Below, in pieces: positions 1,773 through 7,838 of a DNA stretch of 33,923 nucleotides. The position numbers and the translations under genes are program-made. Source of the DNA: Nitrospirota bacterium (GTDB taxonomy: Bacteria; Nitrospirota; Nitrospiria; Nitrospirales; UBA8639); assembly GCA_003696975.1 (NCBI GenBank), contig RFGT01000204.1:1-33923 (forward strand), written 5' to 3'. Below the pieces are notes generated by a model. It ran no database searches and was not told where the DNA came from. It saw nothing but the letters and a program-made list of their open reading frames with translations. The stretch's first letter is position 1. The number at the start of each line of letters is the position of its first letter.

Positions 1773-4538
1773 TTAGCAGCCAGAGGAACCCGGAAGATCA
1801 GACACGACAGAGGAGAAGCTTGTGGGACACCGCCCAGTTTGCAAAAACTGATCCACCTTGGTCTGCACAGTATTCCTGATCACCTCACAGGCCTCTGCCC
1901 CGTCAATTTTGGCTCCTCGTGCATCGGTCACGTAGAACACGTCAACCACTTGATCGAGCCGCGTAGAAATACGAGCCGCGTGGACAGCGAGATGAAGCTC
2001 AAACAAGGTTCGGGCAATCACATACAGCAAGCCTTGGCAATCATCGGCAAACACGTCAATAATGGTGTACTGATCTGACGTTTCATTGTCGATCTGCACT
2101 TCCGTCGGATGCAGTCCCAAGGGACGCGGTTTGGTAAAGGGAAGACGCCGATGGCGTTCCATGATTCGGAGCACGGATTCTTCTCCTTGGAGTACCCTCA
2201 CAATGGTCCTCCCCACGCTCTGGAGGCGCTCAGGCGGAGGTGCCCCATCGAAATCTCGATCTTCCACAACAAACGTATCTACAACAATTCCGTCGTCTCG
2301 GGTGAGAATCTGAGCATCCAGGACTTGCAATCCCTTCGCTGCTAGGACCCCCGCAACGTTCATAAAAATGCCCGGGATAATATCGTCATAGGTAATAAGT
2401 GTATATTCACACACGTGTAACTGGGGATGATACCACGACTCCACCACACATCCCCCGGGCTCGAGACGGCGAAGAATCTTGAAGTGAGCAGCCATGCGCT
2501 CACGTGATGTCCCGGATAAGTAGCGAAGAGGAAACTTCTCAAGTTGGGCAGTGACCCACTCTTTGATGCCCGCCGTGTCACATCCCAGATCGCCCTCTCC
2601 ATGTTGTCCATTCAGCAACACGGTGCACAGGTCGGCGGCCATTTGTGTGAGGTCAGGTCGGATGTCTGTTGCCTCCCGGCCACCTGAGACCTCTGGAAGG
2701 GTGTGGCTATAGAGCTCAACGAGCAAGGCTTCCTTCCATTTCGTGAGCGATCCTGGCCCCACAGCCGCTAGATCAGCCGCAGTCAACAAGAACAACTTTT
2801 TTAACATCTCCGGGGTACCAACCGCCCTGGCAAAGGTCAGAAGAATCTTCTCGTCGGAGGGATCACGTCGAAACGCCGTATTTGCCATGAGGAGATGGTG
2901 GTGCACTAAAAATTCCAGGGTACGGGCCTCATGCTGATCAAGTTGCAACCGAGCGGCCATCTCACGTGCGATCTGTAAGCCCATTTCACTGTGATCCCCT
3001 GGCAGTCCTTTTCCTAAATCGTGAAGCAGTAGGGCCAAATGGAGCAGATCCTTATGCCGGATTTCCTCATAGACCGTCCTGAAAATTCCAGGCTCCCTAC
3101 CCAGACGCTCCATTTCTTTGACGGCCAGCAAGCTGTGTTCATCGACCGTATACTTATGGTATTGGTTAAACTGCATCAGGCCCCGCACCCTGGCAAAGGC
3201 GGGAACCACTTTCTCCAGAACCCTGGCATGATGCATGAGCTCCAACGTCGAGCCTATGGGGCCAGGCCCGGAAAGAATTTGCCGAAACAACCGACTGACC
3301 GGTTCTGTACAGAACGCATGGTCGGGCATGCTTTCCATATGTCGATGAATTTCTTCCAGGGTGCCTCCATCGATCATCAAGTCGCGGAGCTGCGCTTCTC
3401 GGAAAAACCGCAGAAGCCACTCGGGATTTTCCAAGACGTACACCAACTTCTCCGGATGAATGGTCAATCGAGACCCCGATACGTAAAAGCAGCCTTCAAT
3501 GCGAGCAACGGGCCACCAGGATTTCCACCGCACCCACCAGGAGGGTTCCTGCACCCGATCGATAAACCGCATGCATCGCTCATAAATCCCTGTGGTATGC
3601 TGGTAGTACCGCTGCATGAACTGTTCGACGGCGAGCAAATGGGAGTGGTCGCGGAATCCGAACTCTCTCGCAAGTCGGACCTGTTCTTCAAAGGATAAAA
3701 TATCCTGGGCGCGCCCTGCTTGGAGATGCAAGAAGGCTCGGATCCGCCACAAGTAGTCTCGTGCCTCAAGCAGGGCAAGATAATCTTGATGAGCGAGAAG
3801 CCCCCGATTTGCCAGTTCACGCAGGGTGGTCGCTCGATATTTTGCCATCCCAACCCATTGTAAGAGATGGAGATCGCGTAACCCTCCCTTGGTTTTTTTA
3901 ATATTCGGCTCCAGTAGGTAGATGGTTTCCCCAAACTTCGTGTATTCACGTTGCCGCTCTTCGACTTTGTCCTTGATGAATCGCTGCACGTGGCGCCCCA
4001 AGATTCGCTTCGTGAAGCGACGTTGGAAATCTTGAAAGACTTGCACACTCCCGGCTAAAAAACGGGATTCCATCAACGCGGTTCTCGCTGCCAGATCTTG
4101 TTCTGCCACCGCCAAACAATCGGACAAAGACCTCACACTATGCCCGACTTGAAACCCGACGTCCCACAGATGATGAAAGATCTGGGTCGAGAGTGCGGTC
4201 ACCACTTTCTCTCCTCTCCCGTGGAACACAAGCATCACATCGATATCCGAATAGGGCGCCAACTCGCGCCGCCCGTATCCTCCAACCGCCACCAGGCAAC
4301 AATACTGCATGCCTAAGGTCGCCTCAGCTCCCTGTTGCCGCACCACGTTGCGATAGCGGCCAATAAGCACTGCATCTACAAGATCGGTAAATCCCGTCAC
4401 CACTTCTGATCCAGAGGCTCCCTGTTGTAGCCGCTGATGCAACCCATCGCGGCGGGCCTGCAGCACGAGTTGAACGGATTCGGGATCACCACCCAAATGA
4501 CCGGGGAGTATCCGTTCTGGAAGCTTGCACTCGTTCAT
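1773..4538 (-). CDS. glnD: Bifunctional PII uridylyltransferase/uridylyl-removing enzyme GlnD
   Basis: A protein of 921 residues (family about 850-950). It senses glutamine and adds or removes UMP on PII proteins (GlnB/GlnK). The nucleotidyltransferase domain shows GGYGRRELAPYSDID at about residues 86-100, with the metal-binding S-D-I-D. The central HD phosphohydrolase domain has LLLHDLGKGLPGDHSEMG and LVHHHLLMAN. Two C-terminal ACT domains, which bind glutamine, begin near residues 712 and 823. All modules look intact. The open frame extends to 4655, inside nadE. I chose the ATG at 4538, which leaves a 68-bp gap after nadE, but no good ribosome-binding site decides the start (GGAG lies about 12 bases upstream). 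It is probably the last gene of the aroC-aroB-ANTAR-nadE-glnD run. Confidence 0.95.
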   Translation of the reverse strand: MNECKLPERILPGHLGGDPESVQLVLQARRDGLHQRLQQGASGSEVVTGFTDLVDAVLIGRYRNVVRQQGAEATLGMQYCCLVAVGGYGRRELAPYSDIDVMLVFHGRGEKVVTALSTQIFHHLWDVGFQVGHSVRSLSDCLAVAEQDLAARTALMESRFLAGSVQVFQDFQRRFTKRILGRHVQRFIKDKVEERQREYTKFGETIYLLEPNIKKTKGGLRDLHLLQWVGMAKYRATTLRELANRGLLAHQDYLALLEARDYLWRIRAFLHLQAGRAQDILSFEEQVRLAREFGFRDHSHLLAVEQFMQRYYQHTTGIYERCMRFIDRVQEPSWWVRWKSWWPVARIEGCFYVSGSRLTIHPEKLVYVLENPEWLLRFFREAQLRDLMIDGGTLEEIHRHMESMPDHAFCTEPVSRLFRQILSGPGPIGSTLELMHHARVLEKVVPAFARVRGLMQFNQYHKYTVDEHSLLAVKEMERLGREPGIFRTVYEEIRHKDLLHLALLLHDLGKGLPGDHSEMGLQIAREMAARLQLDQHEARTLEFLVHHHLLMANTAFRRDPSDEKILLTFARAVGTPEMLKKLFLLTAADLAAVGPGSLTKWKEALLVELYSHTLPEVSGGREATDIRPDLTQMAADLCTVLLNGQHGEGDLGCDTAGIKEWVTAQLEKFPLRYLSGTSRERMAAHFKILRRLEPGGCVVESWYHPQLHVCEYTLITYDDIIPGIFMNVAGVLAAKGLQVLDAQILTRDDGIVVDTFVVEDRDFDGAPPPERLQSVGRTIVRVLQGEESVLRIMERHRRLPFTKPRPLGLHPTEVQIDNETSDQYTIIDVFADDCQGLLYVIARTLFELHLAVHAARISTRLDQVVDVFYVTDARGAKIDGAEACEVIRNTVQTKVDQFLQTGRCPTSFSSVVSDLPGSSGC

Positions 4539-4606
4539 GAGGATGTTGGCTCCACGTGTCCGGTTCAATCCACTACAATCTCTTTTCGGCCGGCTCTTCA
4601 AGCAGG

Positions 4607-6433
4607 CTAAATCGTCTTTTCCTGTCGAGCAGATCGCCGCCAGAATCTTGGCCAAGAATACCAGTTCGTAATGGGCATGCGCCGATCTTTTCCCAATGCC
4701 CGTCTGGTGATCTTGATCCCGATCGGAGCCTGCCGCCGTTTGTATTCACTTTGGTCCACAAGTGACAGCACTCGCTGGACAGTCGTCCGAGAGAATCCCA
4801 TCTGCACGATCTCCTCAGGCGATCGGTCCTCTTCTACGTATGCTGCCACGATCCGGTCAAGTTCTGCATATGGAGGCAGGACATCCTGATCAGTCTGATT
4901 CGGCTTTAACTCGGCTGAAGGAGGCCGCTCAAAGACACGCTTGGGAATCAAAATCCGGCCTCCGTCACGCTCTGCCTGCTGGTTGCGAAAACGAGCCAGC
5001 TCGTAGACCAGCGTTTTGGGCACGTCTTTGATCACCGCAAATCCCCCAGCCATATCGCCGTAGAGCGTGGCATATCCGACACTCATCTCGCTTTTATTAC
5101 CCGTCGTGAGGACGAGATAGCCAAACTTGTTTGAGAGCGCCATGAGAAGATTACCCCGAATCCTGGCCTGCAAGTTCTCTTCCGTCGCATCAAAGGGGGT
5201 GCCGGCGAATACCTTGGACAGGGTAGAAAGATACCGTTTCCAAATGGACGTAATCGAAAGACGTAAGGACTCGATACCAAGGGCTTTGATAACTGCCTGT
5301 GCATCTTCTCGACTAGCTCGCGAGGTAAACGGAGACGGCATCACCACTCCTAGCACAGAAGATGGGCCCAAGGCATCAACGGCAATGACCGCGGTGAGCG
5401 CCGAATCGATTCCCCCGCTTAGTCCAATAACCACCCGGGCGAACCGATTTTTCCTCACATAGTCGCGCACGCCCAAGACCAACGCCTGATAGACTTCAGC
5501 CAGGGGAGACAAGGCAGGAACAATCCGCGAGCTACACGATGGCATAGGGACAGGACGGGAATAGCCAAGCCCCGGGAGCGTCACCCGTTTCACGGCACGG
5601 CTCGATGAAACGCGACTGGTATGGCTGTCTTTTTTTCGGCGAATCGGCTTTTCGATAACCACATCCGCCAAGAGCATATCTTCTTCGAAGGCTTTGGCAC
5701 GGCCGATCACGTGGCCATGTCGATCGATCAATAGGCTATTCCCATCGAACACCAACTCATCCTGCCCCCCAACCATATTGGTATAACTCACAACCACCCC
5801 ATTTTCTCGCGCTCTCTCTGCGAGCATCTGCTCCCGAAGGTGTGATTTGCCCATGTGATACGGCGAGGCATTAATATTCACAATCAGCTCGGCACCCCCT
5901 AGAGCGACTTGACTCCTCGTCGGACCCTCGGGATACCAGATATCTTCACAGATATTGACGCCTATCGACACATTATCTCGGACGCACACTAGCGGAGTCC
6001 GCCCAGGAGAAAAATAGCGGCTTTCGTCAAAGACCCCGTAATTGGGCAACAACATCTTCTGATAGGTGGCGAACACCTGCCGATCGTGGATGATGGCCGC
6101 AGCATTGAAAATAATAGTCTGTCCAGACGGTACGACCGCAGGGCCCACCCGATGGGTCACGGGTCCGCCTTGCTCGACAAAACCAATAATCGCCGTGAGA
6201 CCGCGACATGCGGCGACACAATGCTGCAAGGCCCTAGCCGTATCTTGGAGAAACTGCGGACGGAGCACCAGGTCCTCAGGAGGATATCCCGTTACGGCCA
6301 ATTCCGGGAACACCACCACCGAAGCCTTGGCTTGACGCGCTTCCTTGATCCAGCGTGTAATTGCCCGGACATTTCCATCCAAGTCTCCGACGGTTGGATT
6401 CATCTGCACCATTGCCATGCGACAGATTTTCAT
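4607..6433 (-). CDS. nadE: Glutamine-dependent NAD+ synthetase NadE
   Basis: It converts deamido-NAD to NAD using ATP and ammonia released from glutamine. The N-terminal nitrilase-type glutaminase domain carries the catalytic triad Glu44 (VFPELAVTG), Lys126 (YQKMLLPNYG) and Cys162 (NICEDIWYP). The C-terminal synthetase domain has the ATP-binding loop SGGIDS at 339-344. The 608 residues slightly exceed the usual 540-580: there is a basic, serine-rich linker at about 265-310 between the domains and a short extra tail after the usual ITNWY end. The ATG at 6433 follows GGAGG (6436-6440) with only a 2-base spacer. Later in-frame ATGs at 6418 and 6412 would lie too far from it. The open frame extends to 6628, inside the upstream gene, but that extension is not credible. 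An intrinsic terminator lies directly before the ribosome-binding site. Confidence 0.95.
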   Translation of the reverse strand: MKICRMAMVQMNPTVGDLDGNVRAITRWIKEARQAKASVVVFPELAVTGYPPEDLVLRPQFLQDTARALQHCVAACRGLTAIIGFVEQGGPVTHRVGPAVVPSGQTIIFNAAAIIHDRQVFATYQKMLLPNYGVFDESRYFSPGRTPLVCVRDNVSIGVNICEDIWYPEGPTRSQVALGGAELIVNINASPYHMGKSHLREQMLAERARENGVVVSYTNMVGGQDELVFDGNSLLIDRHGHVIGRAKAFEEDMLLADVVIEKPIRRKKDSHTSRVSSSRAVKRVTLPGLGYSRPVPMPSCSSRIVPALSPLAEVYQALVLGVRDYVRKNRFARVVIGLSGGIDSALTAVIAVDALGPSSVLGVVMPSPFTSRASREDAQAVIKALGIESLRLSITSIWKRYLSTLSKVFAGTPFDATEENLQARIRGNLLMALSNKFGYLVLTTGNKSEMSVGYATLYGDMAGGFAVIKDVPKTLVYELARFRNQQAERDGGRILIPKRVFERPPSAELKPNQTDQDVLPPYAELDRIVAAYVEEDRSPEEIVQMGFSRTTVQRVLSLVDQSEYKRRQAPIGIKITRRALGKDRRMPITNWYSWPRFWRRSARQEKTI

Positions 6434-6440
6434 CGCCTCC

Positions 6441-6475
6441 AAAAAAAAACGCCCCTTCCTTTCTGGAATGGGACG
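6441..6475 (-). terminator. Intrinsic terminator in the nadE leader (candidate attenuator)
   Basis: On the minus strand the 5' arm CGTCCCATTCC (6475-6465) pairs with GGAAGGGGCG (6459-6450). This gives ten base pairs, one of them G-U, with one bulged A and the loop AGAAA. Nine uninterrupted T residues follow (6449-6441). The U-run is immediately followed by the GGAGG ribosome-binding site and ATG of nadE. A terminator in this position would silence nadE and glnD unless read through, which fits a regulated attenuator rather than a simple operon end. Confidence 0.88.
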
Positions 6476-6538
6476 CCTTTGTCCACTGTGTTCGCGCTGT
6501 GTGGGATCAGGAGAGAACTTTATCCTCTCACGGTGATC
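6471..6538 (-). promoter_or_regulatory. Candidate ANTAR-type antiterminator RNA in the nadE leader
   Basis: Two hairpins precede the terminator. The downstream one (6484-6471) is GGAC-AAAGGC-GTCC: a four-pair stem with a six-base loop carrying A at position 1 and G at position 4, the loop signature described for ANTAR-protein targets. Its 3' arm is part of the terminator's 5' arm, so the two structures exclude each other. The upstream one (6538-6505) pairs GATCA/TGATC and GAGAG/CTCTC, but its apical loop is not a clean A1/G4 hexaloop, so the usual first half of the dual motif is unproven. The gene just upstream encodes an ANTAR protein, making self-operon antitermination plausible. This is inference from visible pairing. 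Confidence 0.5.
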
Positions 6539-6572
6539 TTGCTTGTAACAGGCTCCCTCCCACCATGTCAAG

Positions 6573-7838
6573 CTACGGCTGCGTTGCTTTTTTTTCCAAT
6601 TCGCTGGCGAGAATAATGGCTTCGGCAATCTCGCGCATGGACTTTCGCGAATTCATGCTCTGCCGCTGCATCAAACGGAACGCTTCCGCCTCGGAAAGGT
6701 TTCGCGACTGCATCAAATAGCCCTTGGCGCGCTCCACTAATTTGCGAACTGTCAAGGCTTCCTGCATTTCAAACGATTTCTCCAGCAACCGCGTGTGCTC
6801 AATGGCCACGGCGGCTTGATTGGCAATGGCTTGCAAGATCTTGATCTCTTCAGCGGAGAAGACGTGTAGCGTCGAGGTATAGGTATTAATAACACCAATC
6901 GCTTTGTCCTTGCTCATCATCGGCACAGACAGCAAGGAGCATAAGCCCTCTTTCTGGGCTAGCGCGCGATAGTAGTAGCTTCCTTCTTTTCGAACATCAG
7001 GCACATAGATTGGCCGTTGTTCCTTCACGGCCCGGCCACTCAGACTTTGCCCAATTTTCAAGGGCGGCTTCAGCCGATAGGCCTCGCTCACACTTTGGGT
7101 GGCGGCAATCCGGAGTTCGCCCGTGTCCTCATCGACCAGCATGATCGAGCTAATGGTTGAATTCATCATTTGCGCCGTCATGGTCACGATCAATTGAAGC
7201 ACATCATCCAGCAAGCGATTGGATGCCACGGTTTCGGACACCTGGGACAAGGTGTCTAATTGGCGTGCCTGCCGGCGCATTTCCTCATACAACCTGGCAT
7301 TTTCAATCGCCCCTCCTACTTGATTGGCAATAGTGGAGAGCAAGGCCAATTCTACAGGCTGATAGCGTTTGGGGCGTTTGTGTTGGACATTGATGACCCC
7401 AACGACGTCGCCTTTGGTCACGATAGGTACGGACACAAATGCCTGGTAGCGGTCTTCAGGCAGGTTGTGAAAAAACTTGAACCGCGGGTCATCGCTGGCA
7501 TTTCTGGTGATCACCACCCGGGTCTTTTCCTGTGCGACCCATCCGGTAATCCCCTCTCCCAAGCTCAAGGCGATACGGCCAATCAATTTGGGATGAGGAT
7601 TTTTCGAGGCACGGAGCACCAGTTCGTCGCGACTTTTCGACAATAGATACAACAAACAGGAGTCGGCCTTTGTCACTTCCACGACCACGTCCACAATGTG
7701 CTTCAGTACCACTTCCAAATCAAGCGAGCTGCTGATCGACTCACTGATCCGGTGGAGCACCTCCACCTCGCGCGTCCGCTCGCGCAGCAACGCCCGGAGT
7801 TCCGCTAGCGTACGAGGAGACGATTCTTGCTGATTCAT
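6573..7838 (-). CDS. GAF-GAF-ANTAR domain protein (predicted RNA-binding antiterminator)
   Basis: A soluble protein of 421 residues with no membrane segment. It has a short N-terminal coiled coil (about 10-30), GAF1 (about 40-180), a linker helix, GAF2 (about 200-345) and a C-terminal ANTAR domain (about 358-412). The ANTAR landmarks are ERAKGYLMQSRNLSEAEAF and the following helix with MREIAEAIIL. GAF domains bind small ligands or sense redox or gases. ANTAR domains bind paired hairpins in nascent RNA and prevent termination, as in NasR and EutV. The gene starts 15 bp after aroB, so it is in the same transcription unit, and sits directly upstream of a terminator-bearing nadE leader. The ligand cannot be read from the sequence. 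The ATG at 7838 has only a weak upstream GA-rich site. Confidence 0.9.
   Translation of the reverse strand: MNQQESSPRTLAELRALLRERTREVEVLHRISESISSSLDLEVVLKHIVDVVVEVTKADSCLLYLLSKSRDELVLRASKNPHPKLIGRIALSLGEGITGWVAQEKTRVVITRNASDDPRFKFFHNLPEDRYQAFVSVPIVTKGDVVGVINVQHKRPKRYQPVELALLSTIANQVGGAIENARLYEEMRRQARQLDTLSQVSETVASNRLLDDVLQLIVTMTAQMMNSTISSIMLVDEDTGELRIAATQSVSEAYRLKPPLKIGQSLSGRAVKEQRPIYVPDVRKEGSYYYRALAQKEGLCSLLSVPMMSKDKAIGVINTYTSTLHVFSAEEIKILQAIANQAAVAIEHTRLLEKSFEMQEALTVRKLVERAKGYLMQSRNLSEAEAFRLMQRQSMNSRKSMREIAEAIILASELEKKATQP

Follow-up and report, generated by a model that had tools for sequence, protein, structure and literature searches.

In Geobacter, the two-component response regulator GnfR places several nitrogen operons under ANTAR antitermination. 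ANTAR antitermination, its dual-hexaloop targets and predicted multi-operon ANTAR regulons are already known (PMC3369931). In the eut system of Enterococcus faecalis, EutV, whose input is a phospho-receiver domain, acts on several leaders in which the second of two G4 hexaloops overlaps an intrinsic terminator; the linkers between hairpins measure 5-12 nt, a longer linker abolished antitermination (PMC3369931, PMC8934654), and in the complex G4 stacks on an aromatic residue and A1 lacks specific contacts (PMC8934654). The described motif spans linkers of 2-25 nt (PMC8164766). NasR of Klebsiella, a soluble fusion of a nitrate-sensing domain to ANTAR, serves one known operon, nasF, in nitrogen assimilation (PMC7496416; PDB 4akk), and a predicted nitrogenase ANTAR regulon in Pelobacter embraces several nitrogen operons per genome (PMC3369931). 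NAD synthesis is tied to nitrogen status in other bacteria by PII, which works on the enzyme NadE, and nadE-PII gene islands have been recorded in Nitrospirae (PMC7196632). Our literature search found no ANTAR target in front of nadE, as the original prediction had also supposed, no ANTAR control in Nitrospira, and no named regulator of nitrogen assimilation for the canonical Nitrospira, which are major nitrite oxidisers.

The window analysed here, a stretch of 33,923 nucleotides from a Nitrospirales genome, carries on its minus strand a gene for a GAF-GAF-ANTAR protein, a predicted antiterminator (6573..7838; Pfam GAF x2, ANTAR 72 bits), followed after a gap of 139 bp (6434-6572) by two genes predicted to be under its control: nadE, encoding glutamine-dependent NAD synthetase (4607..6433, ATG at 6433; Pfam NAD_synthase 258.8 bits, CN_hydrolase 119 bits), and, 3' of nadE and overlapping it, glnD, encoding PII uridylyltransferase (1773..4655, start uncertain; Pfam GlnD_UR_UTase 132 bits). 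All features of the gap lie on the same strand. A predicted promoter, the sigma70-like pair TTGACA-N18-TACAAG, has its -35 box at 6566..6571 and its -10 box at 6542..6547. It is followed by a hairpin at 6511..6529 (GAGAGGA-UAAAG-UUCUCUC, -8.1 kcal/mol), which has a short loop rather than an A1/G4 hexaloop and occupies the position, termed P1, at which relatives carry canonical hexaloops. After a linker of 26 nt comes the hexaloop hairpin P2 (GGAC-AAAGGC-GUCC, 6471..6484; loop 6475-6480, with A1 and G4), the predicted ANTAR-binding antiterminator. Its 3' arm is the 5' arm of an intrinsic terminator stem (6450..6475; -16.4 kcal/mol), the common arm being 6475-6471. A T9 tract (6441..6449), kept in relatives, completes the terminator and directly adjoins the nadE ribosome-binding site GGAGG (6436..6440). 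The original prediction had described the terminator with nine T residues touching this site, the A1/G4 hexaloop with its common arm and, as a weak point, an upstream hairpin devoid of such a loop; all are present. It had proposed control of readthrough into nadE and glnD and had missed the promoter: a pair scoring at least 10/12 occurs in 30 of 52 ANTAR-nadE leaders, and the promoter-like pair within the gap makes a separate start for the leader probable, so that its transcription need not rely on polymerase arriving from the ANTAR gene.

In this single sequence the hexaloop might have arisen by chance: when the gap was shuffled 500 times, 94 of the shuffled versions had an A1/G4 hexaloop with at least 4 bp. 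The fold of the terminator was matched by none of 200 shuffles (z = -3.6), and folding of the whole 141-nt leader was not significant (z = -1.66); the case therefore rests on comparison. The Rfam search that had been proposed as a check returned zero matches to the leader among 4227 models at curated and permissive thresholds, even at E<=10, and a plasmid search with the leader gave no match. The nadE terminator, probably on account of its bulge, was missed by a simple terminator scan whose counts were at chance level.

The GAF-GAF-ANTAR gene is the single ANTAR-domain gene in the window's assembly, and its product has the C-terminal ANTAR domain, the aromatic residue and the RNA-contact residues expected of an antiterminator. 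Aligned with EutV, F387 corresponds to Tyr164, M395 to Met172, N396 to Asn173 and R398 to Arg175, with only the contact Arg177 replaced, by S400; the offset between the numbering of the PDB chain and that of the paper is our own reading. The domain aligns with that of NasR (PDB 4akk) at E 3.4e-05. The closest solved relatives of the first GAF domain include GAF domains of phosphoenolpyruvate-protein phosphotransferases, which we take to be the nitrogen-type PtsP and which provide a lead on the signal.

Relatives were gathered by protein search and their ANTAR-nadE gaps extracted. The hexaloop and overlapping terminator are kept in 52 distinct leaders, and the same gene order occurs without the element in a few genomes (L004, L014, L018, L028, L030, L108, L122). 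Across 32 aligned distinct segments P2 is paired in 100% of cells and hardly varies, so that this almost invariant stem contributes no covariation; in the terminator, 5 of 12 pairs have changed on both sides, and 91% of cells are paired as against 49-59% in slid controls. Of the two hairpins, in both of which covariation was to be looked for, P1 displays it. A C-G closed hairpin with the loop A/G-A-x-G-x-x lies upstream in 23 of the 52 leaders, compared with 1.0 expected from shuffles, and its stem contains 26 double-change cells vs 9.2 in shuffled alignments (0/500 shuffles reach 26; slid controls 3-7), a count tilted somewhat towards structure, since loop and inner pairs served to select the rows and weak candidates were removed manually. 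The anticipated conservation of A1/G4 held for the hexaloop as such, with the qualification that position 1 changes from A to G in part of the relatives, a tolerance that fits the lack of specific contact with A1 in the EutV complex; some loops measure 7 nt. Linkers in relatives are ~13-42 nt. The window's genus and several neighbours have a hairpin or remnant at the P1 position without a hexaloop, and the window's nadE leader is, as judged by comparison of sequences, one that has lost its second hexaloop. Together these comparisons place the predicted element far beyond chance.

To search for further copies we used a covariance model, R1, comprising P2 and the terminator. R1 found three places in the window's own genome, scoring 48.2, 42.3 and 34.8 bits (next best 14.6): before nadE-glnD, before an operon of FNT (formate/nitrite transporter) and nirA (ferredoxin-nitrite reductase), and before porin-amtB-glnK-amtB (L165 and L166, respectively, for the latter two). 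The FNT-nirA leader has a second canonical hexaloop; the amtB leader has the loop GAUGGC and one stem mismatch. In 60 relatives the regions of most remaining hits were retrieved and assigned to classes (n=95), and 90 of these hits precede nadE, amtB/glnK, nitrite/cyanate (FNT, nirA, cynS, nrt), urea-transport or sigma54-activator genes. By class, 35 stand before porin-amtB/glnK, 17 before a sigma54 activator (8 of them followed by FNT within the retrieved region), 16 before FNT with nirA or cynS, nine before porin-urt (plus two other urt-type), six before nrtABC, five before nadE and two before an uncharacterised protein, three being unclassified. The A/G-A-x-G loop rule holds in most of 86 classified elements, with 7-nt loops common among those of the nitrite class; 53 of the 86 have a P1 hairpin under the rule applied to the nadE leaders. 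The genome matched to N. moscoviensis has elements before nadE and nrtABC-cynS, and that matched to N. defluvii before nadE and FNT-cynS-nirA. The gene neighbourhood is already known as a syntenic nitrogen region (PMC6311188); proximity does not explain the elements, since in the single-contig genome G010 they lie >100 kb apart.

This distribution bears on an alternative account of the locus, that an ordinary terminator ends the ANTAR-gene transcript and the hexaloop is incidental. A strong terminator directly after the ANTAR gene is what that account would expect, but with the T tract abutting the ribosome-binding site of nadE there is no space in between for a promoter; amtB, nirA, nrt and urt operons without an ANTAR gene ahead of them are preceded by the same hexaloop-terminator; and the loop letters are conserved though the terminator stem can do without them. 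We find this account scarcely credible.

Protein and element also occur together. Among 236 Nitrospirales genomes, 154 have both, 67 have neither and 15 are discordant (ANTAR alone in 7, element alone in 8); ANTAR is thus present in 154 of 162 element-bearing genomes (Fisher p ~3e-41, shared ancestry ignored). The eight genomes with elements in which ANTAR was not detected could indicate a nitrogen-linked attenuator read by another factor, either a small-molecule riboswitch or a different RNA-binding protein, as could the ability of GAF proteins to act on other partners, the binding of ANTAR to the leader being a prediction. Most of the eight are, however, incomplete assemblies, the loop rules fit known ANTAR targets, the RNA-contact residues are conserved, and protein and element are missing together both inside one genus and from a second family, so that another reader appears quite improbable. 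In the genus concerned, g12, neither is present in 47 of the 49 genomes that have an AMO-family monooxygenase (e.g. G044, G190), while the four members first sampled without that monooxygenase have both; g13 genomes (family f4) are without either. In genus g19, ANTAR is kept in 12 of 12 genomes with an AMO-family gene and elements in 9 of 12, which rules out a strict rule that no ammonia oxidiser possesses the system. Complete ammonia oxidisers are described as having neither nitrite assimilation nor cyanase, with a syntenic nitrogen region kept in one clade B genome (PMC6311188); we infer that g12 corresponds to clade A and g19 to clade B. Beyond the order, ANTAR orthologues (46-62% identity) of other families are followed by different genes and lack a convincing element; those of family f16 (L254-L257; 46-47% identity) are followed by another conserved gene, membrane-protein-like, with no R1 match.

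We consider it highly probable that a trans-acting GAF-GAF-ANTAR antiterminator governs attenuation of nadE-glnD and of a wider nitrogen-assimilation regulon, and we infer binding, antitermination, sign and signal from leader anatomy, conservation, covariation, the mutually exclusive pairing, the RNA-contact residues, gene sets and co-occurrence. RNA polymerase would begin at the promoter immediately downstream of the ANTAR gene, and its default would be to stop at the terminator ahead of the nadE ribosome-binding site, the terminator being far more stable than P2 (-16.4 vs -5.2 kcal/mol). On sensing a signal through its GAF domains, most plausibly nitrogen shortage, the protein would bind the P2 hexaloop, and P1 where present; P2, so held, would prevent the terminator from forming because the two have an arm in common, and nadE-glnD would be transcribed. 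The same protein may act in trans on the FNT-nirA and porin-amtB-glnK-amtB leaders of the window's genome and, in relatives, on those before nrtABC-cynS and urt genes. The control of nadE-glnD by the ANTAR protein that was originally proposed is thereby retained, but as a single cis pair it was too narrow, two further elements lying elsewhere in the genome; likewise, the suggested coupling of a GAF-sensed signal to NAD synthesis and PII modification is better seen in a setting where nadE is one of a nitrogen-assimilation set and nitrogen status the likely theme. Such a regulon is a sensible home for nadE, given the PII control of NadE elsewhere. Activation on nitrogen shortage, the sign suggested by the target set, agrees with transcription in N. 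moscoviensis under the single condition of nitrite as sole nitrogen source, where most of the gene region, cyanase included, was strongly transcribed and one of three amtB copies was low (PMC6606698).

ANTAR binding might instead have the opposite sign, favouring termination, or act at the translation start by blocking ribosomes; ANTAR RNAs can work at the level of translation (PMC8164766, PMC3369931), and here the T tract adjoins the ribosome-binding site. Against both, P2 and the terminator are mutually exclusive, as in eut, and the terminator of several relatives is separated from nadE by 38-225 nt, a distance too great for ribosomes to be blocked directly. We judge these variants very improbable. 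With less assurance than for antitermination itself, we think it fairly probable that the GAF-GAF-ANTAR protein is an RNA-level master nitrogen regulator of canonical Nitrospirales (nadE-glnD, amtB-glnK, nirA, cynS, nrt, urt), which a single lineage of complete ammonia oxidisers has lost along with the target leaders, and that a single-hexaloop version works before nadE in part of the family.

Compared with EutV/eut, the Nitrospirales system has in common an ANTAR domain with matching RNA-contact residues, G4 hexaloops, a hexaloop overlapping an intrinsic terminator and several leaders per protein; it differs in its two GAF domains, its nitrogen-acquisition targets, its longer linkers (~13-42 nt against 5-12 nt), its A or G at loop position 1 and, in the window's nadE leader, its one hexaloop. 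That leader has an A1/G4 hexaloop of at least 3 pairs, the terminator overlap and an ANTAR-encoding genome, and no second upstream A1/G4 hexaloop; the element at large departs from the described motif in linker length, purine at position 1 and 7-nt loops, and this leader, with its second hexaloop missing, is not classed here as a standard dual-hexaloop member. With NasR/nasF it has in common a soluble sensor-ANTAR fusion, nitrogen assimilation and, as predicted here, antitermination, but it has two GAF domains and a multi-operon set (nadE-glnD, amtB-glnK, urea/cyanate genes). The Pelobacter regulon, like that of GnfR in Geobacter, comprises several nitrogen operons but concerns nitrogenase genes in another lineage, and we found no nadE, nirA, cynS or urt targets for either. 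The PII-NadE contact acts on the enzyme, whereas the element would act on nadE-glnD transcription, so that, if the proposal is true, NAD synthesis would be tied to nitrogen supply at a second level. None of the searchable papers describes this set of targets, this lineage, the relaxed loop or the long linker. One RNA-binding sensor with mapped targets can be tested in cultured species (N. moscoviensis, N. defluvii), its loss in ammonia-oxidising relatives is a natural experiment on their lost nitrite/cyanate assimilation, and natural leaders with a single hexaloop and long linker probe the current model of ANTAR action.

Several variations were also observed. In part of the genomes (L167:2016-3242, L182, L189, L201 and others) a sigma54-activator gene that lacks a recognised sensor domain stands immediately behind the element and ahead of the nitrite transporter, an arrangement that suggests a regulatory cascade. 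In L172, L173, L174, L177, L247 and L264, nrt or FNT operons are preceded by two hexaloop-terminator elements in tandem, spaced ~100 nt apart. Matches at L175:4349-4500 and L195:199-251 precede genes without assigned nitrogen function, with two tandem elements before the uncharacterised protein of L175. At L088:9021, L108:8981 and L122:4243 the element does not precede nadE but lies ~1.9-3.3 kb past its start, where it may stand in front of glnD or another nitrogen gene. The ANTAR-nadE gaps of family f2 (L124-L130) contain up to three hexaloops, mostly G1, and what appear to be two tandem attenuators; in L117 three imperfect tandem copies of a ~100-bp repeat separate the ANTAR gene from the leader.
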